Positions 17,085 to 28,189 of a stretch of DNA of 34,550 nucleotides are shown piece by piece. The notes beneath the pieces are model-generated. The model did not search any database, had not been told where the DNA came from, and was given only the letters and a program-made list of their open reading frames with translations. The DNA is from Bacteroidales bacterium. GTDB taxonomy: Bacteria > Bacteroidota > Bacteroidia > Bacteroidales > WCHB1-69. The stretch spans positions 1 to 34,550 of the forward strand of contig JAQVNO010000010.1 in assembly GCA_028703095.1 (NCBI GenBank), given 5' to 3'. How positions within the stretch are numbered: position 1 is the stretch's first letter; each line of letters begins with the position of its first letter. A program made the translations under genes and the position numbers.

Positions 17085-19637
17085 TTATTCGTTTTTATTG
17101 TTAGTAATGAGAAAATTTGTTTTTCTGTTACGATACAAACCCAGTCCAACTACTGCCAATAGTAAGATAATAATGACAGATGAAGAGGCATTCGAAATCT
17201 TTGCACTTAAGATACTCATGTGGGGAATGTATTTAAATTCTATGTTATGATTGGCTGCAGGCACAAGCATGGCTCTGAGAATATAATTAACACGGAAATG
17301 CGGTACTTTCTTGCCATCCAAATAGGCTACCCATACTCCTTTGTCGTAGAGGACTTCGGAGAAAGTAACCAATTGTTCTTTTGTAGATGAATACGTATAG
17401 TTTAATCGATTGGGAGCGCATAAAGTGTTGACGATTGTAGCATTTGTGTCTCTTGAAATCATTTTGCCTTTAAGGATATCTTCATAGCGTTTCTCGATGA
17501 TGGCAGTATCTTTCACATTCACGTCTTTCAGTGCCAGTATTTCTTGGTCAGGATTTTCAACAATTTTATAGGCATCCACTAACCATACTGAACCGTAAGC
17601 TTCGGGGTTGCGTTGTACTTGTCCGTTTTGTGTAATGATATAGCGAGTGTTTAGCATGTTAAGTACATTCATATTCAATTGGGATGCAAAATAAAAATCG
17701 ATAATATCCTGATATCTTCTTAATTTAGCAGGGCTATAACCGCCAATGGATTTGTGAAAATACGAAGTAGATGATTCATTGAAAGTATTACTTGCTAAAT
17801 TCAATACTCTGTAATTGATATCTGTGTCTTGTAATATCATCTTGTCGGCTTCGGTCGGCTGATGGATATTTTTCACTTTAAATTTGGGTTGAAAATCGGT
17901 TTCGTTTAAATATCGTTTAGAAACAGCCCAGCCATCAATGAGTACTAACATAGCGAGAGATGCAATGACAAGCGTCAGGTTTTTCATTTTATCTTTTAGA
18001 TATAACCATAACAAAGAGAATCCCAATGAAATAAAAACAAGAGAACGGAAAACATCTTTATACACCATTGATTGGCGGTAATCTGTTAAAATTGACAAAA
18101 TACTTCCTACATTACTTTCGGTAAATCCTGCATTGAGCAGTTGTTGTTTGTATTGCTCGTCGCCACTACCTATAAATGAGAAAAACATAGCAGCGGCAAT
18201 AGCCATTAAAATACAAATTCCGGCTGTTATAAAATAGCTTATTTTTAGTTGTTTTAATATATATTCCTTGCTTAGGTTGCCGGAAAATATATCTTTCAAC
18301 GCCAGCATCCCCAAAATGGGCATAGCTACACCCGCGATGATGAGAGCCATGGCAGGAGTTCGGAATTTATTGTAAAAGGGTAAGTTATGGAATAGAAAAT
18401 CATTAATGACATCAAAATTTCTTCCCCAAGCGAGGATGAGAGAAAGCATAAAAACGGCTAACACCCACCATTTTTCGGGACCTTTTATGATAAACAAACT
18501 TAAAATAAATAAGAAACAGACGATAGCGCCTGCATACACAGGTCCTGAAGTAAAAGGTTGGTCTCCCCAATAGGTAGGCAAATAGGTAGATCCATATCCA
18601 TTTTGTCGCAATGCTTGCATGGTTTCTGATTCCGGTGCCAGTTCGGTATGCCCACCCCCGTAGAGATTAGGAACCAATAGCGTAAATGTTTCCATCTTAC
18701 CATAACTCCATGCAAAAGCATAATCTTTTTCCAAACCACCTTCATTAGGAGTAGCAGCATTTGCTGTTTGTTGTTTGATTTCCGGTACAATTGTCAATTC
18801 AGAACCGCCACGCATGGTATCTTTGCTGTAAGTATAGGTTGGTAATAAATTACCCAGATTAGGCAATACGGCGAAAACAGCAGCGATAAGAAGTATGCCC
18901 ATAGCCTTAAAAAATGGTTTTAGGTTTTTTTCTTTCAGCAGATAATAAAAGAAATAGACAATGCCGATTATCCCAACCATCAACATAGCGTAATATGTGA
19001 TTTGTAGGTGGCTGCAACTAATTTCTATTCCTAAAAACAAGAGTGTGACAATGCCTCCCAGCAGATATTTCTTTCGAAAAGCAAGTAGGATGCCTCCTAT
19101 CATCGGAGCGATGTATGCCATTGCATAGCCTTTGGTGACGTGTCCTGCTTCGATGATAATAAAGTTGTAAGAAGCAAAGGTATAAACAATAGCTCCCAAC
19201 AAACTTATCCAGGCGTTGGCACCTAAACAAAGCATGAAAATATAAAAACACAGCAAATAAGTAAAAACAATACCGGCATGCAGCAAAGGTAACCCCCCCC
19301 TAAAAATATAACTTAATTTATGGAAAACATTGAAATAGGGTTCTCCCCATAAAGTAGTGGTGGGCATGCCACTAAACATGGCATTGGTCCACTCGGAATA
19401 TTCCCCTGTTTTTTCCTGATACGCTTTGACTTCTTGTGTCATTCCTTCAACACTGACCATATCGCCTTGAGGCAGTTCTTTGTCATCAAAGAATACCGGA
19501 CTGAAGTATGTGATAGTAAGAAGATACATTATGCCAATGGCAAGGATATGGGGAAGACTTTTCTTTAATATATTCGAAAAAGGATTTTGTGTTTTTTTTG
19601 AAGCTATAGACTTCTCTTTCATGTTATTATTTTTCAT
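17085..19637 (-). CDS. YfhO-family polytopic membrane protein (GT-C-like)
   Basis: An 850-residue protein with about a dozen hydrophobic segments, the last near the C-terminus ([20 protein letters not shown]). The first loop carries [12 protein letters not shown] and the motif [14 protein letters not shown], which is common in YfhO-like proteins of Bacteroidota. A large extracytoplasmic region lies at about residues 590-815. YfhO of Firmicutes is a GT-C enzyme that decorates cell-wall polymers from lipid-linked sugars, so a periplasmic glycosyltransferase is likely here. It heads the glycan operon with gmd 2 bases downstream. A TAATTTTG box lies 35 bases upstream. Two Met codons at the start (residues 1 and 6) are both possible. 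The coding sequence has a G8 tract at codons 113-115. Confidence 0.8.
19293..19300 (-). repeat. G8 homopolymer inside yfhO
   Basis: Eight consecutive C on the plus strand, read as AGG GGG GGG (R113, G114, G115) in yfhO. This is striking in an AT-rich gene. Gain or loss of one base would shift the frame about 13% into the gene. The tract is in frame in this sequence. Confidence 0.9.
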
Positions 19638-20169: not shown

Positions 20170-22089
20170 ATGAAAAATGTAATTTTAATAACAGTCATAT
20201 TTGTATTCTCCATTTCTTTTTCAATCGCACAACTTCCTTCTTATGTACCAACAGATAGTCTTGTAGCTTGGTTTCCTTTTAACGGGAATGCGTATGATTA
20301 TAGTGGCAATAACAATCATTTGACAAATTATGGTGCATCATTAACCAACGATAGATTCAATAATTATAATTCAGCATATAATGTTCAATCTTATAGTGGA
20401 TTAAGAAAATCTACCCCCGTTAGCAATGGCGTAAATGTGACTTATTCGTTTTGGGTATATGCAAGTTCTGGAAGTACAAATATTATTGCAGAAACAAATC
20501 CTTTAGCGACAGCAGGATTTCATGCTTATATACAAAATTATATTCCTAAAATATGTACTCAGGGAGTGATTTATAATGTAACTAATGCAACAGCAACCAT
20601 TGGACAAAATACATGGTATTTTATTGCAATGACAAAACAAGGAACACAATTTAAATTATATATTAATGGAATATTAACAAGTCAAGGTACTAGCAACTCT
20701 AATGCGTTTGATGCCAATACATATTTTTTTATAAGTGCAGGTGTCAGTAACAGCGGAGGATTTTCCGGAAATATTGATGATGTCGGAATTTGGAATCGTG
20801 CATTAACACAAACTGAAATCACAACATTATATAATGCTTGTTCGGACACTATTATAGTTAATCAACCACTTAATCAATCAATTGCCATTGGTAGTAATGC
20901 ACGTTTTTTGGCTTCTGCACCTACTTACACTTATTTTCAATGGCAAACCAATACCAATCATTTAGGATGGCTTAATATTCCTTCCAATAGTTATTATTTA
21001 GGAGTAAACAATGATACTTTATTTTTAAATAATGCACAAGTAAGTAATCATCTGCAACAGTTTAGATTATTAGCCACATATAATAATTGCAACGATACTT
21101 CAAGCATAGCGACTTTGTTCATTACGGATACTTGTATTGTATCATTTAATGATACCAATATTATTTCTTTTTATGATACGATAATGATTAACGACACAAA
21201 TCATATAATTTACAATGATACAAGCTACATAGTACTGAACGATACCAATCATGTTATCATTAACGATACCAATTATCTTGTTTTTGATACCAATTATGTA
21301 ATTATCAATGATACAAACTTTATTATTTTAAATGACACCAATTACATTGTTTTGAATGATACGAATTATGTGATAATAAATGATACGAACTTCATGGTAT
21401 GGAACGATACAAATCATGTAATTATTAATGACACAAACTATATTATTTTAAATGACACAAACCATATCATTATTAATGACACAAACTACATTATTTTAAA
21501 TGACACCAATTATGTGATTCTCAATGATACTAATTTGATTATCATTAATGATACGAACCAAATTATTGTTTATGATACGAATTATATTTATGTTTTCGAT
21601 ACAAGTTATGTTATCATTAACGATACTAGCTACATGATTATAAATGACACAAATTATATAGTTGTCAATGACACCAGCTATATTATTTTAACCGACACGA
21701 ATTATGTAATCATCAATGATACAAATCATATAGTAATTTATGATACAAATCATATTATCGTAAACGATACCAACTATGTTTCGGTAACAGATACCTTAAT
21801 CATAGACGTTAACCTACATATAGAATCCAATAACATTGTTAACACCATTAAAATATTTCCAAATCCGGCAAAAGATTACATAACTATTGATTTTGGAGAC
21901 TTTGAGTCCATGTCAGCTTATTTGTTGAAAATCACTAGTATTACCGGTCAAATTATCTGTTTTACACCTATTTATCAACAAAAGACACAGCTTGATTTAT
22001 CAACTTGGTTAGGAGAAGGTATTTATTTTTTCCAAATACTCGATACGAAAAACAATGTTATTGTTACTAAAAAAATAGTTTTAAAATAA
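20170..22089 (+). CDS. Secreted LamG-domain protein with 29-unit DT octapeptide stalk and T9SS sorting domain
   Basis: A 639-residue exported protein. A signal peptide (MKNVILITVIFVFSISFSIA) is followed at about residues 22-225 by a LamG/concanavalin-A-like domain (LVAWFPFNGNAYDYSGNNNH, TWYFIAMTKQGTQFKLYING, GNIDDVGIWNRALTQTEI). An Ig-like domain spans about 226-318 (NQPLNQSIAIGSNARF, FQWQTNT, FRLLATYNNC). Residues 319-547 are 29 units of an octapeptide of the form NDTNYIIL. The C-terminus (about 555-639) is a type IX sorting domain: IKIFPNPAKDYITIDFGDF, ITGQIICFTP, GIYFFQILDTKNNVIVTKKI. It is thus expected to cross the outer membrane by T9SS and be anchored on the surface. A paralogue with a much shorter stalk follows 119 bases downstream. 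Role is likely binding or adhesion; no catalytic motif was seen. Confidence 0.85.
   Translation: MKNVILITVIFVFSISFSIAQLPSYVPTDSLVAWFPFNGNAYDYSGNNNHLTNYGASLTNDRFNNYNSAYNVQSYSGLRKSTPVSNGVNVTYSFWVYASSGSTNIIAETNPLATAGFHAYIQNYIPKICTQGVIYNVTNATATIGQNTWYFIAMTKQGTQFKLYINGILTSQGTSNSNAFDANTYFFISAGVSNSGGFSGNIDDVGIWNRALTQTEITTLYNACSDTIIVNQPLNQSIAIGSNARFLASAPTYTYFQWQTNTNHLGWLNIPSNSYYLGVNNDTLFLNNAQVSNHLQQFRLLATYNNCNDTSSIATLFITDTCIVSFNDTNIISFYDTIMINDTNHIIYNDTSYIVLNDTNHVIINDTNYLVFDTNYVIINDTNFIILNDTNYIVLNDTNYVIINDTNFMVWNDTNHVIINDTNYIILNDTNHIIINDTNYIILNDTNYVILNDTNLIIINDTNQIIVYDTNYIYVFDTSYVIINDTSYMIINDTNYIVVNDTSYIILTDTNYVIINDTNHIVIYDTNHIIVNDTNYVSVTDTLIIDVNLHIESNNIVNTIKIFPNPAKDYITIDFGDFESMSAYLLKITSITGQIICFTPIYQQKTQLDLSTWLGEGIYFFQILDTKNNVIVTKKIVLK
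21124..21810 (+). repeat. 24-base tandem coding repeat, 29 units (NDT-N/S octapeptide)
   Basis: Each unit encodes eight residues, consensus N-D-T-[NS]-[YHF]-[IV]-[IV]-[ILV]. Of the 29 units, 27 are exactly eight residues long, one is seven (NDTNYLV) and one six (YDTIMI). Every unit has Asp-Thr. Codons for Asn, Asp and Thr vary freely between units (AAT/AAC, GAT/GAC, ACA/ACC/ACG), so most copies are old or held by selection on the protein. A local 48-base duplication is visible: 21421-21468 and 21469-21516 differ at 7 positions. Confidence 0.95.
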
Positions 22090-22208: not shown

Positions 22209-23597
22209 ATGAAAAATGTATTTTTAACAACTATTTTGATTCTTCTTTCTATTTCTTTTACAAGAGCACAACTTCCCGCTTACGTTCCAACAGACAGCCT
22301 TCTAGCTTGGTTCCCTTTTAATGGGAATGCCAATGATATTAGCGGAAACAACAATCATTTGACAAATTATGGAGCTTCGTTAACCAACGATAGGTTCAAT
22401 AATTATAATTCTGCGTATAATGTACAGGCATATAGTGGATTAAGAAGATCTGTTCCCATTACCAATGGTGTAAATGTAACTTATACGTTTTGGATTTATG
22501 CAAGTACAGGAGGTGCTAATATTATTGCAGAAACAAATTCACCACTCACAAGTAGTGGTTTTAATTGTTTGATTCAAAATTATATTCCAAAAATATGTAC
22601 GCAAGGAGTAGCTGCAAATGTGACAAATGCAACCTCAACAATTGGACAAAACACATGGTATTTTATTACAGTAACAAAACAAGGAACTCAATTTAAATTA
22701 TATATTAATGGGATATTAACAAGTCAAGGTACAAGCAATGCTAATTCTTTTGATGCAAATACCTATTTCTTTATTAGTGCCGGTGTAAGTAATAGTGGGG
22801 GATTTTCGGGTAATATAGATGATGTAGGCATTTGGAATCGTGCATTAACACAAACGGAAATTTCCGGATTATATAATGCTTGCAATGGCAATATCATAAC
22901 AACACAACCTACTAATCAAAATGTTACTCTTGGTAGTAATGCCAATTTTATTACAGCGTCTTTAGTAAATTCAAACTATCAATGGCAAACCAATATAGGT
23001 CATTTAGGATGGATTAATACACCGTCCAATAGTTATTATTCGGGAGGGAGCAGTAATGCGATGACCGTAAATAATGTACAGTTGAATAATCATTTACAGC
23101 AATTTAGACTAATAGCAACATTAAATGGATGTGAAGATACATCGAATGTAGCTACATTAGTAATTGCCGATACTTGTATTGCTTCCCAAAATGACACCAA
23201 TCATATTAATGTTTACGATACGATAAATATTTATGATACTGTTATAATAAATGATACCAATCATATAACAGTTAACGATACTGTCCTTATTTCTGTAGTT
23301 GATACACTTGTCATTGAAGTAGAATTAAATATTTCTTCTCCCGTGGTAAATCTTATCAAAATATATCCAAATCCGGCTAAGGATTATATCACAATCGATT
23401 TTGGTGATTTTGCGTCTATGTCGGGTTATTTATTGAAAATTACAAATGTGTCGGGACAAATTATTTATTATACTCCTATTTATCAACAAACAACGCAACT
23501 TGACTTATCAACGTGGACGGGTAAAGGTATTTATTTTGTGCAAATACTCGATTCACAATTTCAAATTATTGAAACAAAGAAAATCCTTTTAGAATAA
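22209..23597 (+). CDS. Secreted LamG-domain protein, short-stalk paralogue, T9SS sorting domain
   Basis: A 462-residue paralogue of the gene upstream with the same architecture. There is a signal peptide (MKNVFLTTILILLSISFTRA), then a LamG domain at about 22-225 nearly identical in many stretches (NNNHLTNYGASLTNDRFNNY, GNIDDVGIWNRALTQTEISG). An Ig-like domain at about 226-319 is more diverged (NQNVTLGSNANF, YQWQTN, FRLIATLNGCEDTS). The stalk has only seven DT units (residues 320-371). A sorting domain follows (IKIYPNPAKDYITIDFGDF to ILDSQFQIIETKKILLE). The two genes are a tandem duplication in which the LamG and C-terminal parts stayed similar and the stalk changed length. It ends just before a terminator hairpin shared with the converging glycan operon. 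Confidence 0.85.
   Translation: MKNVFLTTILILLSISFTRAQLPAYVPTDSLLAWFPFNGNANDISGNNNHLTNYGASLTNDRFNNYNSAYNVQAYSGLRRSVPITNGVNVTYTFWIYASTGGANIIAETNSPLTSSGFNCLIQNYIPKICTQGVAANVTNATSTIGQNTWYFITVTKQGTQFKLYINGILTSQGTSNANSFDANTYFFISAGVSNSGGFSGNIDDVGIWNRALTQTEISGLYNACNGNIITTQPTNQNVTLGSNANFITASLVNSNYQWQTNIGHLGWINTPSNSYYSGGSSNAMTVNNVQLNNHLQQFRLIATLNGCEDTSNVATLVIADTCIASQNDTNHINVYDTINIYDTVIINDTNHITVNDTVLISVVDTLVIEVELNISSPVVNLIKIYPNPAKDYITIDFGDFASMSGYLLKITNVSGQIIYYTPIYQQTTQLDLSTWTGKGIYFVQILDSQFQIIETKKILLE
23166..23321 (+). repeat. DT repeat of the second LamG protein, 7 units
   Basis: Units read ADTCIASQ, NDTNHINV, YDTINI, YDTVII, NDTNHITV, NDTVLISV and VDTLVIEV: five of eight residues and two of six. The first and last units match the ends of the long array in the paralogue, so the difference lies in the middle. 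Confidence 0.9.
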
Positions 23598-23697: not shown

Positions 23698-24783
23698 TCA
23701 ATTATTTAAAATATTCTTGTATACATCACATGTATTATTAACCATTTTATCAATTGTATAATCGTTTATTTTTTTGGTTCCTTTAGAGATTAATGATTTT
23801 CTCATATTGTCATCCGTTACTATCCGTTGAATGGCATCACGAATGGATGTTTTATCTTTTGGATCAAAATAAAGGGCTGCATCTTGAGCTATTTCAGGGA
23901 AACAACTTGCATTGCTTAAACACACCGGACAGTTATTGGCAAATGCTTCTAAAATCGGTATGCCAAATCCTTCGTAAAGAGATGGAAATACAAAAACTAA
24001 AGCATGTTGATACAATGAATATAACATAGCATCACTTGCTTGTACATGGATTAACTGAGAAGAAATGGAATGTTCTTGAAAAAAGTTTATTTCTTCTTTA
24101 GAAAATGAGTTGCCGGTGCATACCACTTTTAATCTTTTATTTGCATGTAAAAGTGGAAAAATTGCTTCTAAAAATGGGATGAAATTTTTGTAATTTTTCC
24201 TTTCCCCAACATACAAAATATAATTTTCATAGATTTGCTCGGCTATTTCTACTTGCTGTTTATATCCATGGTGAACAACCGTTATTTTATCGGGATGTAT
24301 ACCTAAAAATTCCACGATGTCGTTTTTTGTATTTTGACTCACAGCGATAATATGCGTTGCTTTATGAGCCAATAATTTTTTATTTTTTGCTATATTGTCG
24401 TAAATAGGAAATGAATTGGGAAAACGTTCGTGAATCATATCATGTATGGTAATGACAAAAGGTTTCTGTATGTGTTTTAAAAAATAAGGATTATAATATG
24501 TGGGATGAAAAATATCAAATTGGTTTTTTTTAATAGCTTTTGTGGAGATTTGATTATTCATGAAATAATATAAACGTCGTTTGATGCGGAAATTTTGTAT
24601 ACAATCCGTAGATTTGTATGGCTGATTGTAAGGTTTTGTTATATAATGATTTTCGGAGTACTGCATAGCCATTTCTTTTTCAAATCCATCAGGTAAATTG
24701 TGTATTAAATCTGCAAAATAACGGGTTATTCCGCCGAATTTTTGCATGCTAAACATTTGATGATCGTAAAGTATTTTGAACAT
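23698..24783 (-). CDS. Glycosyltransferase family 4 (GT-B fold)
   Basis: A 361-residue glycosyltransferase resembling bacterial mannosyltransferase-type GT4 enzymes. The N-terminal half has FGGITRYFADLIHNLP and FVITIHDMIHERFPN. The donor domain has ILYVGERKNYKNFIPFLEAI, VFVFPSLYEGFGIPILEAFA with the EX7E pair, and CPVCLSNASCFPEIAQDAAL. Donor and linkage are not predictable. It is the last gene of the second glycan operon, 59 bases after the methyltransferase gene, with a strong terminator downstream. Confidence 0.9.
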   Translation of the reverse strand: MFKILYDHQMFSMQKFGGITRYFADLIHNLPDGFEKEMAMQYSENHYITKPYNQPYKSTDCIQNFRIKRRLYYFMNNQISTKAIKKNQFDIFHPTYYNPYFLKHIQKPFVITIHDMIHERFPNSFPIYDNIAKNKKLLAHKATHIIAVSQNTKNDIVEFLGIHPDKITVVHHGYKQQVEIAEQIYENYILYVGERKNYKNFIPFLEAIFPLLHANKRLKVVCTGNSFSKEEINFFQEHSISSQLIHVQASDAMLYSLYQHALVFVFPSLYEGFGIPILEAFANNCPVCLSNASCFPEIAQDAALYFDPKDKTSIRDAIQRIVTDDNMRKSLISKGTKKINDYTIDKMVNNTCDVYKNILNN

Positions 24784-24842
24784 GAGAATATGTTTAATAT
24801 TGGAAACAGCATATTTAAAAAATATAAGTCTGATAATTTTCG

Positions 24843-25616
24843 CTAAATAGTTCCTTGTTTTAAAGATTTACTGTCACTTAATACATATTTTGAATTAAAA
24901 AAGTTGTATTGTACTATTTTAAAGTAATTAAAAAATAAATTACATAACGTATGTGATAGCATTTTTTCTGTTAGTAGATGAAAATCTTTGTTGTTAGAAT
25001 AAAGGTAAAGATTGTATTTTTTTGCCAAAAAGTTTAACGTTTGCTTTGAATAAAAGGAAATATGTTGTCCGTGTTCAAAGGCATAATACCACCAATTTTT
25101 ATCAGGGATTTCAGAAGGTATTAATAGGGTTGAAAAAAATATATTTCTACTTACATCTAACATAGATTCTAATTCTTTCAAAGGATTCTGAAAATGTTCA
25201 AATGCTTCAAATGCAGTTATTAGTTCAATAGGGTTGTTTTGAAGAGATTGAAAATCAAAGCCGCGAGCAAAAATATTATCAGTATATAAATCATTCCATA
25301 AAAAGTTAAATCCTTTATCTCTCATTAAGCGCACAAAAAGACCATAACCACCAGCCATGTCAACATAAGTAGCGTTAACACGAAAAAAAGCTTTGATGAT
25401 TGCACTTGTTAGTTTAGCGCAATATATATTTCGTTGAACTAAACCGGTATCGGTAAGATTAATAGAGCTAGCATATGCTTCATCTAACCAAAAAGGCTCT
25501 TCTGTTTGTATAAAATCGCAGTTTTCACATTTAAAATATGTGATATTATATTTATGTAGAATGTTAGCTTGAAAAGCTGTTTTCACGGGTAGACCGCATA
25601 TACGACATGTGTTCAT
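24843..25616 (-). CDS. Class I SAM-dependent methyltransferase with N-terminal zinc-binding motif
   Basis: A 257-residue protein. The N-terminus has two Cys pairs, CRICG (residues 4-7) and CENCD (about 30-33), which form a likely zinc knuckle. The SAM site follows with YVDMAGGYGLFVRLMRDKGF, where the usual DxGxGxG is DMAGGYG, and the downstream acidic residue in FLWNDLYTDN. ITAFEAFEHFQNPLKELE resembles motif II of the Methyltransf_23 group. Such proteins occur in capsule and O-antigen clusters, where they methylate sugars or act with sugar-branching enzymes. It lies 2 bases after the glycosyltransferase gene upstream. Confidence 0.8.
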   Translation of the reverse strand: MNTCRICGLPVKTAFQANILHKYNITYFKCENCDFIQTEEPFWLDEAYASSINLTDTGLVQRNIYCAKLTSAIIKAFFRVNATYVDMAGGYGLFVRLMRDKGFNFLWNDLYTDNIFARGFDFQSLQNNPIELITAFEAFEHFQNPLKELESMLDVSRNIFFSTLLIPSEIPDKNWWYYAFEHGQHISFYSKQTLNFLAKKYNLYLYSNNKDFHLLTEKMLSHTLCNLFFNYFKIVQYNFFNSKYVLSDSKSLKQGTI

Positions 25617-25618
25617 GC

Positions 25619-26542
25619 TTAAAACTTGGAGATAATTTTGTTTTTACGTTTGATAAATCGCCAAAATAATTGAATGATTGTTTTATTATACATTTTTTTA
25701 TATAAATACTTATCAGCTTCTTTATCTTGAAAAATTGACGACGTGTGCCTTAACGGTAATATTGAATTGGTTTTTAATTCTAAATTGGTTGTATCACTTT
25801 TTGCATCAAAATGTGTTCCATCATCAAGACCAACGTTTGAGATTAGATTGACATTAGGAATAATACTTAATCCTTTGTTTTTCCACAAATGGAATCCTAA
25901 TTGATAATCCCATGTATCGTTACCTTGCTTTTTCATCATCAAGAATTTATCAATCCATACTTTTCTTTCCTTCCAAGACGATAAATATGGTTGGATATCT
26001 TTTTTAAATTCAGACAGAGCATAATCCTTCAAGTATAAATCATATCCCTGCCAAGTTCTTCTCCATGAAGCCCAACCCCATATATTAATATACCCTGAAA
26101 AATAATAAGAAGTGTTTCCTCTTTGGATTCCATCCTGAAAATTATCGCCGGAAATCAACATGATTTTTTTATTGTCTTTGTATTTATTTAATAATTCTTC
26201 ACAATACGTAAAAAAATCAGGGTGAGGCAAACAATCATCTTCTAAAATAATTCCTTGTTCAACATTATCAAAAAACCATGTTATAGCAGTAGATACCCCT
26301 TTGGCGCAACCTAAGTTTTGATTTTGAAATAATGTTTTTAATTCACAATCCCAGTCTATTTGTTTTACAAGATCTCTCACTTTTTGGCATTTTTCAACTT
26401 CTCCTTCTTTATTTGATCTAGGTCCGTCAGCAGCTATATATAAATATTTAGGTTCTCGTTTTTTAATGGCATCAAACACTTGCTGAGCAGTTTCGATTCT
26501 ATTAAATATTATAAATAATATTGGCGTATTAAAGGAAGTCAT
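25619..26542 (-). CDS. GT-A fold glycosyltransferase (HlpA-like)
   Basis: A 307-residue nucleotide-sugar transferase. It starts TPILFIIFNRIETAQQVFDA, has YLYIAADGPRSNKEGE and a metal site in GIILEDDCLPHPDFFTYCEE, followed by the aromatic segment NIWGWASWRRTWQGYD. This pattern is that of the proteins often annotated as hemolytic protein HlpA-like or GNT-I-like glycosyltransferases in polysaccharide clusters. No membrane segment was seen. The haemolysin name in databases is misleading. It lies 16 bases after fkbM and 2 before the methyltransferase gene. Confidence 0.82.
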   Translation of the reverse strand: MTSFNTPILFIIFNRIETAQQVFDAIKKREPKYLYIAADGPRSNKEGEVEKCQKVRDLVKQIDWDCELKTLFQNQNLGCAKGVSTAITWFFDNVEQGIILEDDCLPHPDFFTYCEELLNKYKDNKKIMLISGDNFQDGIQRGNTSYYFSGYINIWGWASWRRTWQGYDLYLKDYALSEFKKDIQPYLSSWKERKVWIDKFLMMKKQGNDTWDYQLGFHLWKNKGLSIIPNVNLISNVGLDDGTHFDAKSDTTNLELKTNSILPLRHTSSIFQDKEADKYLYKKMYNKTIIQLFWRFIKRKNKIISKF

Positions 26543-26558
26543 AATTAGTATAAATGAT

Positions 26559-27248
26559 TTAATTATGTTTAAATAATGATGTACGTTGTGTTCGTCCTAC
26601 CATAGTGTAATTTTTAGCTTTAAGAAATTGGTATATTGAATTTGACTGTATATCGTCAATCGTCGATTCACATTCTATTAGAATAAATGTGGGAATATAT
26701 TTATTCCAATCATTTGATTGTATGACTTCAAAATCAAATCCTTCTACATCTATAGTTAACAAATCAATTTTTCTTTGATGCGGTAAATTTCGATCCAAAA
26801 TATCTTTTAAAGGATAAGTATGTATATTAATCTTCTCAATAATATAATATTTTCTGTTATGACTTCCATCTCGTTCCTTAGCTATTTCGGAATCAAAAGT
26901 ATTCAATGCGCCATCATTAAAAATATGGAATGTCAAAACTTCACCCTTACCAATACCTATATTTAAATTAATGTCTTTTTTTCGATGTTTTATAAATTTT
27001 TTAAATAAACTCGGTGTTGGTTCAATATTTATCCCTCTCCAACCTTTTTTATAAAAATAGGCGGTATTAGAGAATCTATATGGATGGTGAGCTCCTACAT
27101 CAACATAAAAACCTTTATATTTTTTTTTATTTTCAAAAAAGGAAGCTAAAAGCATGTCTTCCCCATCTTGAGCATATGCATTTTTTCTAAATAAAAACTG
27201 AGGGATTATATCATTAGCAATGTTAAATAATAATTTTTTAATTCTCAT
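26559..27248 (-). CDS. FkbM family methyltransferase
   Basis: A 229-residue class I methyltransferase with the FkbM features: AQDGEDMLLASFF, the SAM motif FYVDVGAHHPYRFSNTAYF, GWRGINIEPTPSLFKKF, then LLTIDVEGFDFEVIQ and the closing ILIECE. FkbM-type enzymes O-methylate sugars in surface glycans as well as polyketides. Placement between UDP-xylose synthase and a glycosyltransferase argues for methylation of a glycan residue. Translation is coupled within the operon, since the gap to uxs is only 2 bases. Confidence 0.88.
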   Translation of the reverse strand: MRIKKLLFNIANDIIPQFLFRKNAYAQDGEDMLLASFFENKKKYKGFYVDVGAHHPYRFSNTAYFYKKGWRGINIEPTPSLFKKFIKHRKKDINLNIGIGKGEVLTFHIFNDGALNTFDSEIAKERDGSHNRKYYIIEKINIHTYPLKDILDRNLPHQRKIDLLTIDVEGFDFEVIQSNDWNKYIPTFILIECESTIDDIQSNSIYQFLKAKNYTMVGRTQRTSLFKHN

Positions 27249-27250
27249 TT

Positions 27251-28189
27251 CTATTTAAGTAAAAGTTTAAAATATTCAATTGTCTTTAACAATCCTTTTT
27301 CTAATTGAATACTTGGTTCCCAATTTAATTCTTTTTTTGCCAATGAAATATCCGGACAACGTTGCATAGGGTCATCAGAGGGTAAAGGTTTGAAAATGAG
27401 TTTTGATTTAGAACTAATCATTTCAATGACCTTTTGTGCTAATTCAAGTATTGTAAATTCATGTGGGTTGCCAATATTTACAGGACCAATAAACTCATCC
27501 GGAGCTTCCATCATTTTAATCATCCCCTTTATTAAATCGTCAATATATTGAAAACTGCGGGTTTGTTTTCCATCCCCATAAATAGTTATATCCTTGCCTT
27601 GTAATGCTTGAACAATAAAATTTGAGACAACACGACCATCGTTGGGATGCATTCGAGGGCCATAGGTATTGAAAATTCTTACAATTTTAATGTCTACACT
27701 ATTCATACGATGGTAATCCATAAATAATGTTTCGGCACATCTTTTCCCTTCGTCATAGCAAGAACGAATACCAATGGGATTCACATGTCCCCAATAGGAT
27801 TCTATTTGTGGATGCACATTTGGATCACCATACACTTCGCTGGTTGAGGCTTGTAGTACTCTAGCTTTAGTTCGTTTTGCTAAACCAAGCGCATTAATGG
27901 CTCCCATTACCGATGTTTTAATAGTTTGTATGGCATCAAATTGATAATGAACAGGTGAAGCCGGACATGCTAAATTATAAATCTGATCCGCTTCAATAAA
28001 AAAAGGCATAGTAACATCATGACGTACTATTTCAAAATACGGATTATTCAATAGATGTACAATATTTGCTTTTTGACCGGTAAAATAGTTATCTAAACAA
28101 ATAACTTCATTTCCTTCGTTTAAAAGCCGCTCACATAAATGAGAGCCTATAAAACCAGCTCCTCCTGTTACTAATATTTTTTTCATCAA
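27251..28189 (-). CDS. UDP-glucuronate decarboxylase (UDP-xylose synthase)
   Basis: It decarboxylates UDP-glucuronate to UDP-xylose. This extended SDR has the Rossmann motif [29 protein letters not shown] and the UXS-specific [20 protein letters not shown] followed by ASPVHYQFD. The catalytic residues are in QASTSEVYG and the YxxxK pair in [30 protein letters not shown] is typical of UXS. Length 312 is the short bacterial form without a membrane anchor. It is the first gene of the second glycan operon with a -7 box 23 bases upstream. UDP-glucuronate must come from a UDP-glucose dehydrogenase that is not in this window. Confidence 0.93.

Follow-up and report, generated by a model that had tools for sequence, protein, structure and literature searches.

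A 639-residue protein encoded at 20170..22089 on the forward strand of the window (the whole 34,550-nucleotide stretch of Bacteroidales DNA analyzed here) contains an array of 29 units built on an Asp-Thr (DT) dipeptide. The locus raises the question of what so long and regular an array does and whether it constitutes a new fold, an undescribed beta-roll having been proposed for it in a sequence-only reading of this DNA. The array is confirmed and is unusual in degree; it is the extreme of a known style of linker and not a proven new fold. On balance, we lean toward the explanation that it is a beta-structured surface stalk, an extreme, 29-unit expansion of a length-variable DT linker, connecting a lectin-like head to a T9SS sorting domain.

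The array and its protein context

The open reading frame specifies, in order, a signal peptide, a LamG/ConA-like domain, an Ig-like domain, the DT array and a T9SS type A sorting domain. Residues 1-20 (20170..20229, +) are a probable Sec signal peptide, as judged from a typically hydrophobic N-terminus and an AF2 helix at residues 2-17 rather than by a dedicated signal-peptide predictor. The lectin-type head (residues 24-224; 20239..20841, +) matches PF13385 in a Pfam scan (E 2.1e-18, residues 86-217), and of the structural matches over residues 24-228 the best is to AbnA, an arabinanase, through its domain 4 (Z 21.3), in keeping with which the head may bind sugar. (The head also matches clostridial toxin binding domains; this is uninformative about toxicity because the jelly-roll lectin fold is common and the best Z belongs to the carbohydrate-binding arabinanase domain. 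A match of the protein to the fimbrial TafC lies far under cut-off and covers part of LamG only.) Residues 225-318 (20842..21123, +), which are conserved in relatives and form beta strands in the 15-sequence AF2 model (pLDDT mostly 65-86), probably constitute an Ig-like domain. The array occupies residues 319-547 (21124..21810, +). The proposed placement of the array in front of a T9SS domain is correct: residues 562-637 (21853..22080, +), scanned with the array left out, exceed the cut-offs for PF18962 (E 2.2e-12, 47.5 bits; cut-off 27) and TIGR04183 (E 1.5e-10, 40.9 bits; cut-off 23).

The octapeptide period is real. The 29 DT dipeptides run from residue 320 to residue 541 with 26 of the 28 spacings exactly 8, the exceptions being one of 6 (336 to 342) and one of 7 (366 to 373); the 26 DT-x6-DT pairs compare with a mean of 0.04 in the shuffled protein (maximum 1 in 2000 shuffles). 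Across the 25 regular units only D and T are invariant; position 3 is N (21) or S (4), position 4 is mostly Y, H or F, positions 5-7 are rich in I, V and L, and position 8 is N in 19, giving the consensus D-T-[NS]-[YHF]-[IVM]-[IV]-[ILV]-N. The anticipated alternation of a polar NDT turn with beta-prone residues is accordingly a regular property of the units. K, R, E, G and P are absent from the array, which is 48% ILVFYWM, falls on the folded side of the charge-hydropathy boundary and has a beta propensity of 1.19, a composition that argues against a free disordered chain.

Affiliation with known repeats was discounted at the outset, and this also holds: the array lacks Gly and has period 8, as against the RTX nonapeptide GGxGxDxUx and the five-residue A(D/N)LxX of pentapeptide repeats, for which there is no Pfam match. 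Pfam, NCBIfam and PDB sequence families yield no significant match to the array, and neither phage records nor viral contigs hold one that would indicate phage or viral origin. Weak matches to B_lectin (E 0.23), gastrodianin (E 0.07) and JUQZ_fam_ocin (E 0.003, 17.8 of a required 40 bits) are read as chance, reflecting a repetitive strand pattern.

A 16-residue higher order, with Ile alternating with Leu or Trp at the end of the strand in neighboring units, had been suspected and does not materialize. Position 7 switches between I and L/W 12 times (permuted mean 11.6, p 0.54), the likeness of units at lag 2 does not stand out from that of shuffled units (p 0.16), and lag-2 likeness does not exceed lag-1 likeness (p 0.64). 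Nor is there significant 24-residue order in the array (lag 3, p 0.10); the best lags of unit similarity, 5 and 7 units (p 0.02-0.03), are not significant across the 12 lags.

An old array and a length-variable linker

A counterpart is on contig JAGOKS010000071.1 of a sister genome, 'Bacteroidales bacterium isolate Go_SlDig_bin_369' (whose name hints at a sludge digester as source). Its array also has 29 units, shares both odd spacings and aligns with no gaps, at 97% protein identity. This conservation, together with the fact that the longest exact DNA repeat in the array is only 23 bases, rules out collapse or expansion in assembly. The units differ pairwise at 8.2 of 24 bases on average, mostly at third codon positions; between units, synonymous sites are saturated and pN is 0 for D and T. 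Between the two genomes, dN and dS are 0.015 and 0.18 for the array and 0.058 and 0.46 for the head. The diverged units, their saturated synonymous sites, conservation in the sister genome and the dN/dS values imply that the array is old, is kept by selection at the protein level, and is no active minisatellite. The array is under purifying selection.

Two further features of the comparison with the sister genome are worth recording. The array has lower dS (about 0.17, 95% CI 0.10-0.26) than the sorting domain (0.53, CI 0.30-0.88). Over the LamG stretch corresponding to 20470-20644 (22509-22683 in the downstream copy), copy 1 of the sister genome is 87-92% identical in nucleotide sequence to its own paralogue and 72-84% identical to its orthologue here, a pattern over ~175 bases that is suggestive of gene conversion within the tandem pair.

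The tandem paralogue in question lies directly downstream of the array gene (22209..23597, +). Its 462-residue product has a like layout (Pfam), is 72% identical over residues 1-366, and has a short DT linker of about 7 units (23166..23324, +). DT linkers are not general among this genome's T9SS cargo: 29 other tails hold at most 3 DT in the 66 preceding residues. The sister genome also encodes, on a separate contig (L168, 343-1533), a third LamG protein whose tail is related and whose linker is short (TDTLSVEDTLNI).

Relatives were sought with a profile built on the tail and the end of the linker (alignment A2), which matched 33 of 295 genomes of the order and 4 of 296 of the phylum; the weaker of these matches are probably ordinary sorting domains. 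The strong matches have chains of 1, 2, 4, 6, 8, 9 or 10 DT units, mostly with a VTDTLII-like last unit. The array protein likewise has a VTDTLII-like last unit, its DT recurring at intervals of about eight residues between the head and the sorting domain. Related heads are followed by one or a few DT units, by no linker (L135, L138), or by a second Ig-like domain instead (L131, L132). When five DT at exact period 8 are specified instead, 7 genomes in the phylum (of 395) and 16 in the order (of 295) qualify; most of these contain low-complexity DNA or unrelated proteins, and array-type architecture is found, besides this genome, only in G252, G582 and G584. Thus, the DT unit goes with this type of sorting-domain tail, and 29 units make the longest array seen. 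Since relatives have 0-10 units at the same place and the paralogue has about 7, the array can be thought of as an extreme expansion of a linker of variable length, and its length is as unusual as had been supposed. Within family f1, strong matches are confined to this genome and its sister among 99 genomes; the patchy distribution suggests transfer or frequent loss. A literature search whose coverage excluded most subscription journals found no description of such DT linkers. (DT octads also occur elsewhere: leucine-rich-repeat-like proteins of other Bacteroidales (L043, L044, L045, L047) have them in mid-protein (DTLLIIRIDTLLVFDSDTLFI), with no adjacent T9SS tail.)

Sugar-nucleotide and glycosyltransferase genes flank the array gene and its paralogue on both sides. 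Upstream, and divergent from the array gene, is the gene of an 850-residue YfhO-like membrane protein (17085-19637), which adjoins a GDP-mannose 4,6-dehydratase gene; relatives of YfhO are linked to glycosylation. Downstream, genes with equal ORF lengths look alike in the two genomes, but the interval that separates them from the paralogue (23698-28189 here; L169, 3837-6142, in the sister genome) holds fewer ORFs in the sister genome, and different ones, as if the glycan cassette that follows the paralogue were variable.

The fold and function of the array

Type A cargo of the T9SS is known to be cleaved by PorU and joined to surface polysaccharide (PMC4560394, PMC11969387). This genome has 77 sorting-domain matches and PorU (E 4e-255; 847 bits with NF033707, cut-off 420, the remainder being on a second contig). 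A surface stalk would accordingly come about in the following way: the Sec signal would export the array protein, which the T9SS would then move across the outer membrane; there PorU would cleave close to the array's end, removing the sorting domain and attaching the new C-terminus to surface polysaccharide. The array would thereby hold the lectin-like head away from the cell, and its units would probably form a stacked beta structure, a parallel beta-helix or other solenoid being likelier than a flexible chain. The stand-off of the head would equal the length of the array, arithmetically about 45 A as a three-sided helix and much more if extended. The occurrence of 0-10-unit DT chains before like sorting domains in relatives, and of a short-linker paralogue next door, speaks for a stalk. 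On the other side, the expansion rests on a single lineage (this genome and its sister, of the 99 genomes of family f1), and relatives with 1-4 units have too few to form a solenoid, so that the ancestral role of the linker needed none.

Two AF2 models of the full-length protein bear on the fold. The single-sequence model has one strand per unit at pLDDT 50-65, the array being its best-predicted part. Adding 15 homologues improves the folding of head and tail, and gives the array regular strands of about 5 residues with NDT turns, at pLDDT 60-77 in mid-array and <50 at both ends, a modest confidence. A Foldseek search with the single-sequence model gave no significant match; structural comparison of the same model gave UpaB (Z 15.2) and tapirin (Z 14.1, 2.5 A over 189 residues), with RTX at Z 5.0. 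Confident beta-solenoids are a known AF2 output for arbitrary perfect repeats, and natural repeats may be affected too (PMC11795689). Because of this bias, which like the low confidence at the array ends also counts against a beta-stacked stalk, the likeness to a three-sided helix is a lead only. A strand is predicted in each unit, but an undescribed beta-roll goes beyond models of modest confidence and known bias, and the array is a candidate new beta fold rather than a proven one.

The roll is weakened in its two-sided form, in which 16-residue coils would have Asn/Asp turns that bind a cation. Each unit does supply the polar NDT turn and strand that it requires. However, there is no 16-residue order, the RTX motif and Gly are absent, the 6- and 7-residue units would break register, and the single-sequence model resembles a three-sided beta-helix with 24 residues per coil far better than it does RTX rolls (Z 14-15 versus 5), leaving a two-sided roll very improbable. 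A segment of the cross-beta, functional amyloid-like kind, self-associating and linking cells or polymers in a biofilm, might be suggested by Asn-, Thr- and Ile-rich repeats that are uncharged except for Asp and have the beta propensity already noted; one covalently anchored copy per protein beside a lectin head would suit display rather than polymerization, and curli CsgA (8c50) matches poorly in structure (Z 7.8, rmsd 9.5), so we give this reading hardly any credence. Less easily set aside, though still unlikely, is a spacer, extended or flexible, that has no intrinsic fold, in which the units would add only length and the DT spacing would be left over from unit duplication. It accommodates the use of single DT units, or of 2-4 copies, by relatives, for which no solenoid is possible, the low AF2 confidence at both ends of the array, the lack of 16- or 24-residue order, and the location of known T9SS cut sites in flexible linkers between a folded tail and a folded mature domain (PMC11969387). 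Set against it are a composition (48% ILVFYWM, zero Gly, Pro, Lys, Arg and Glu) unlike that of a disordered linker and the invariance of D and T in the face of saturated synonymous sites, which is more constraint than a plain spacer needs.

The invariance of D and T can be read in yet another way, as the sign of a mucin-like stalk in which the Thr of each unit bears a Bacteroidota O-glycan that would stiffen and protect it. The Bacteroidota O-glycosylation motif is D(S/T)(A/I/L/V/M/T/S/G/F/C) (PMC8729774, PMC8550257). It fits 47 of the 50 D(S/T)x of other DT linkers, T9SS cargo of Tannerella forsythia is heavily O-glycosylated (PMC8729774, PMC8550257), and sugar and glycosyltransferase genes lie on either side of the gene pair. 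In contrast, only 7 of the 29 array units fit; the other 22 are DTN, for which there is no reported site (PMC8729774, PMC12871550), and these are related by duplication and hence are not independent observations. Moreover, Ser, which is slightly preferred at known sites (PMC12871550), never substitutes for Thr in the array. With Asn at position 3, the array is mostly outside the sequon, which is suggestive of the long array having left the glycosylation system. The contrast is no more than suggestive because the DTN units are not independent and the motif is weak evidence, 176 of the 209 D(S/T)x in the frames of other cargo fitting it as well. It weakens the mucin-like reading for the array protein, which we regard as improbable; for the short linkers that reading is open.

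To return to the beta-structured stalk: a stronger version of it, which is conceivable and which we put forward tentatively, is that amplification of the unit turned a short extended linker into a folded, new sequence class of parallel beta-helix with ~ten 24-residue coils, Asn at position 3 removing the O-glycosylation sequon. This entails a shift from an alternating D-T-V-x-V-T-V-x pattern to a turn and strand block, N-D-T-N-Y-I-I-I, with Tyr/His and Ile that may form ladders along the outside. Relatives form a natural series in which one position carries anywhere from 0 to 29 units, and the long array has a short-linker paralogue beside it. Two questions thereby become testable: what determines how far from the cell T9SS-anchored lectin-like heads stand, and whether a folded rod can arise by amplification of linker units. 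For glycoproteomics, the sequon contrast (47/50 against 7/29) is a direct prediction.

Comparison with known systems

Three-sided parallel beta-helices (UpaB, the tapirin C-terminal domain, inulin lyase and Awp1) match the single-sequence AF2 model at Z 13-15, which would put about three eight-residue units in each coil. In sequence, however, the array has no significant match among solved structures, and the likeness is to a low-confidence model of a kind that AF2 over-calls. The RTX nonapeptide beta-roll is also a repeat of short turn and strand with Asp in the turn, as in the array, but requires nine-residue units with Gly where the array has eight-residue units without it. The bacterial ice nucleation protein (PMC9418140) is comparable as a long and regular array with Thr and Tyr that is predicted to form a solenoid; its coils are of 16 residues, an order that the array lacks, and no ice nucleation Pfam repeat is matched in the array at E up to 1.

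TfsA and TfsB of Tannerella forsythia are, like the array protein, T9SS cargo with many D-S/T sites (PMC8729774, PMC8550257). They are O-glycosylated, whereas the DTN of the array is outside the characterized motif.

The nearest counterparts are the DT-type linkers of other Bacteroidota (L011/L097, L040/L101, L041/L102, L115 and L110), which share with the array its place, its eight-residue unit and the type of tail, and mostly also the VTDTLII-like last unit. These linkers have 1-10 units of alternating D-T-V-x-V-T-V-x, as against 29 of D-T-N-Y-I-I-I-N. In nine other linkers hydrophobic residues occupy positions 3, 5 and 7 and alternate with mostly polar ones; in the array, they form a block at positions 4-7, and position 3 is Asn or Ser.
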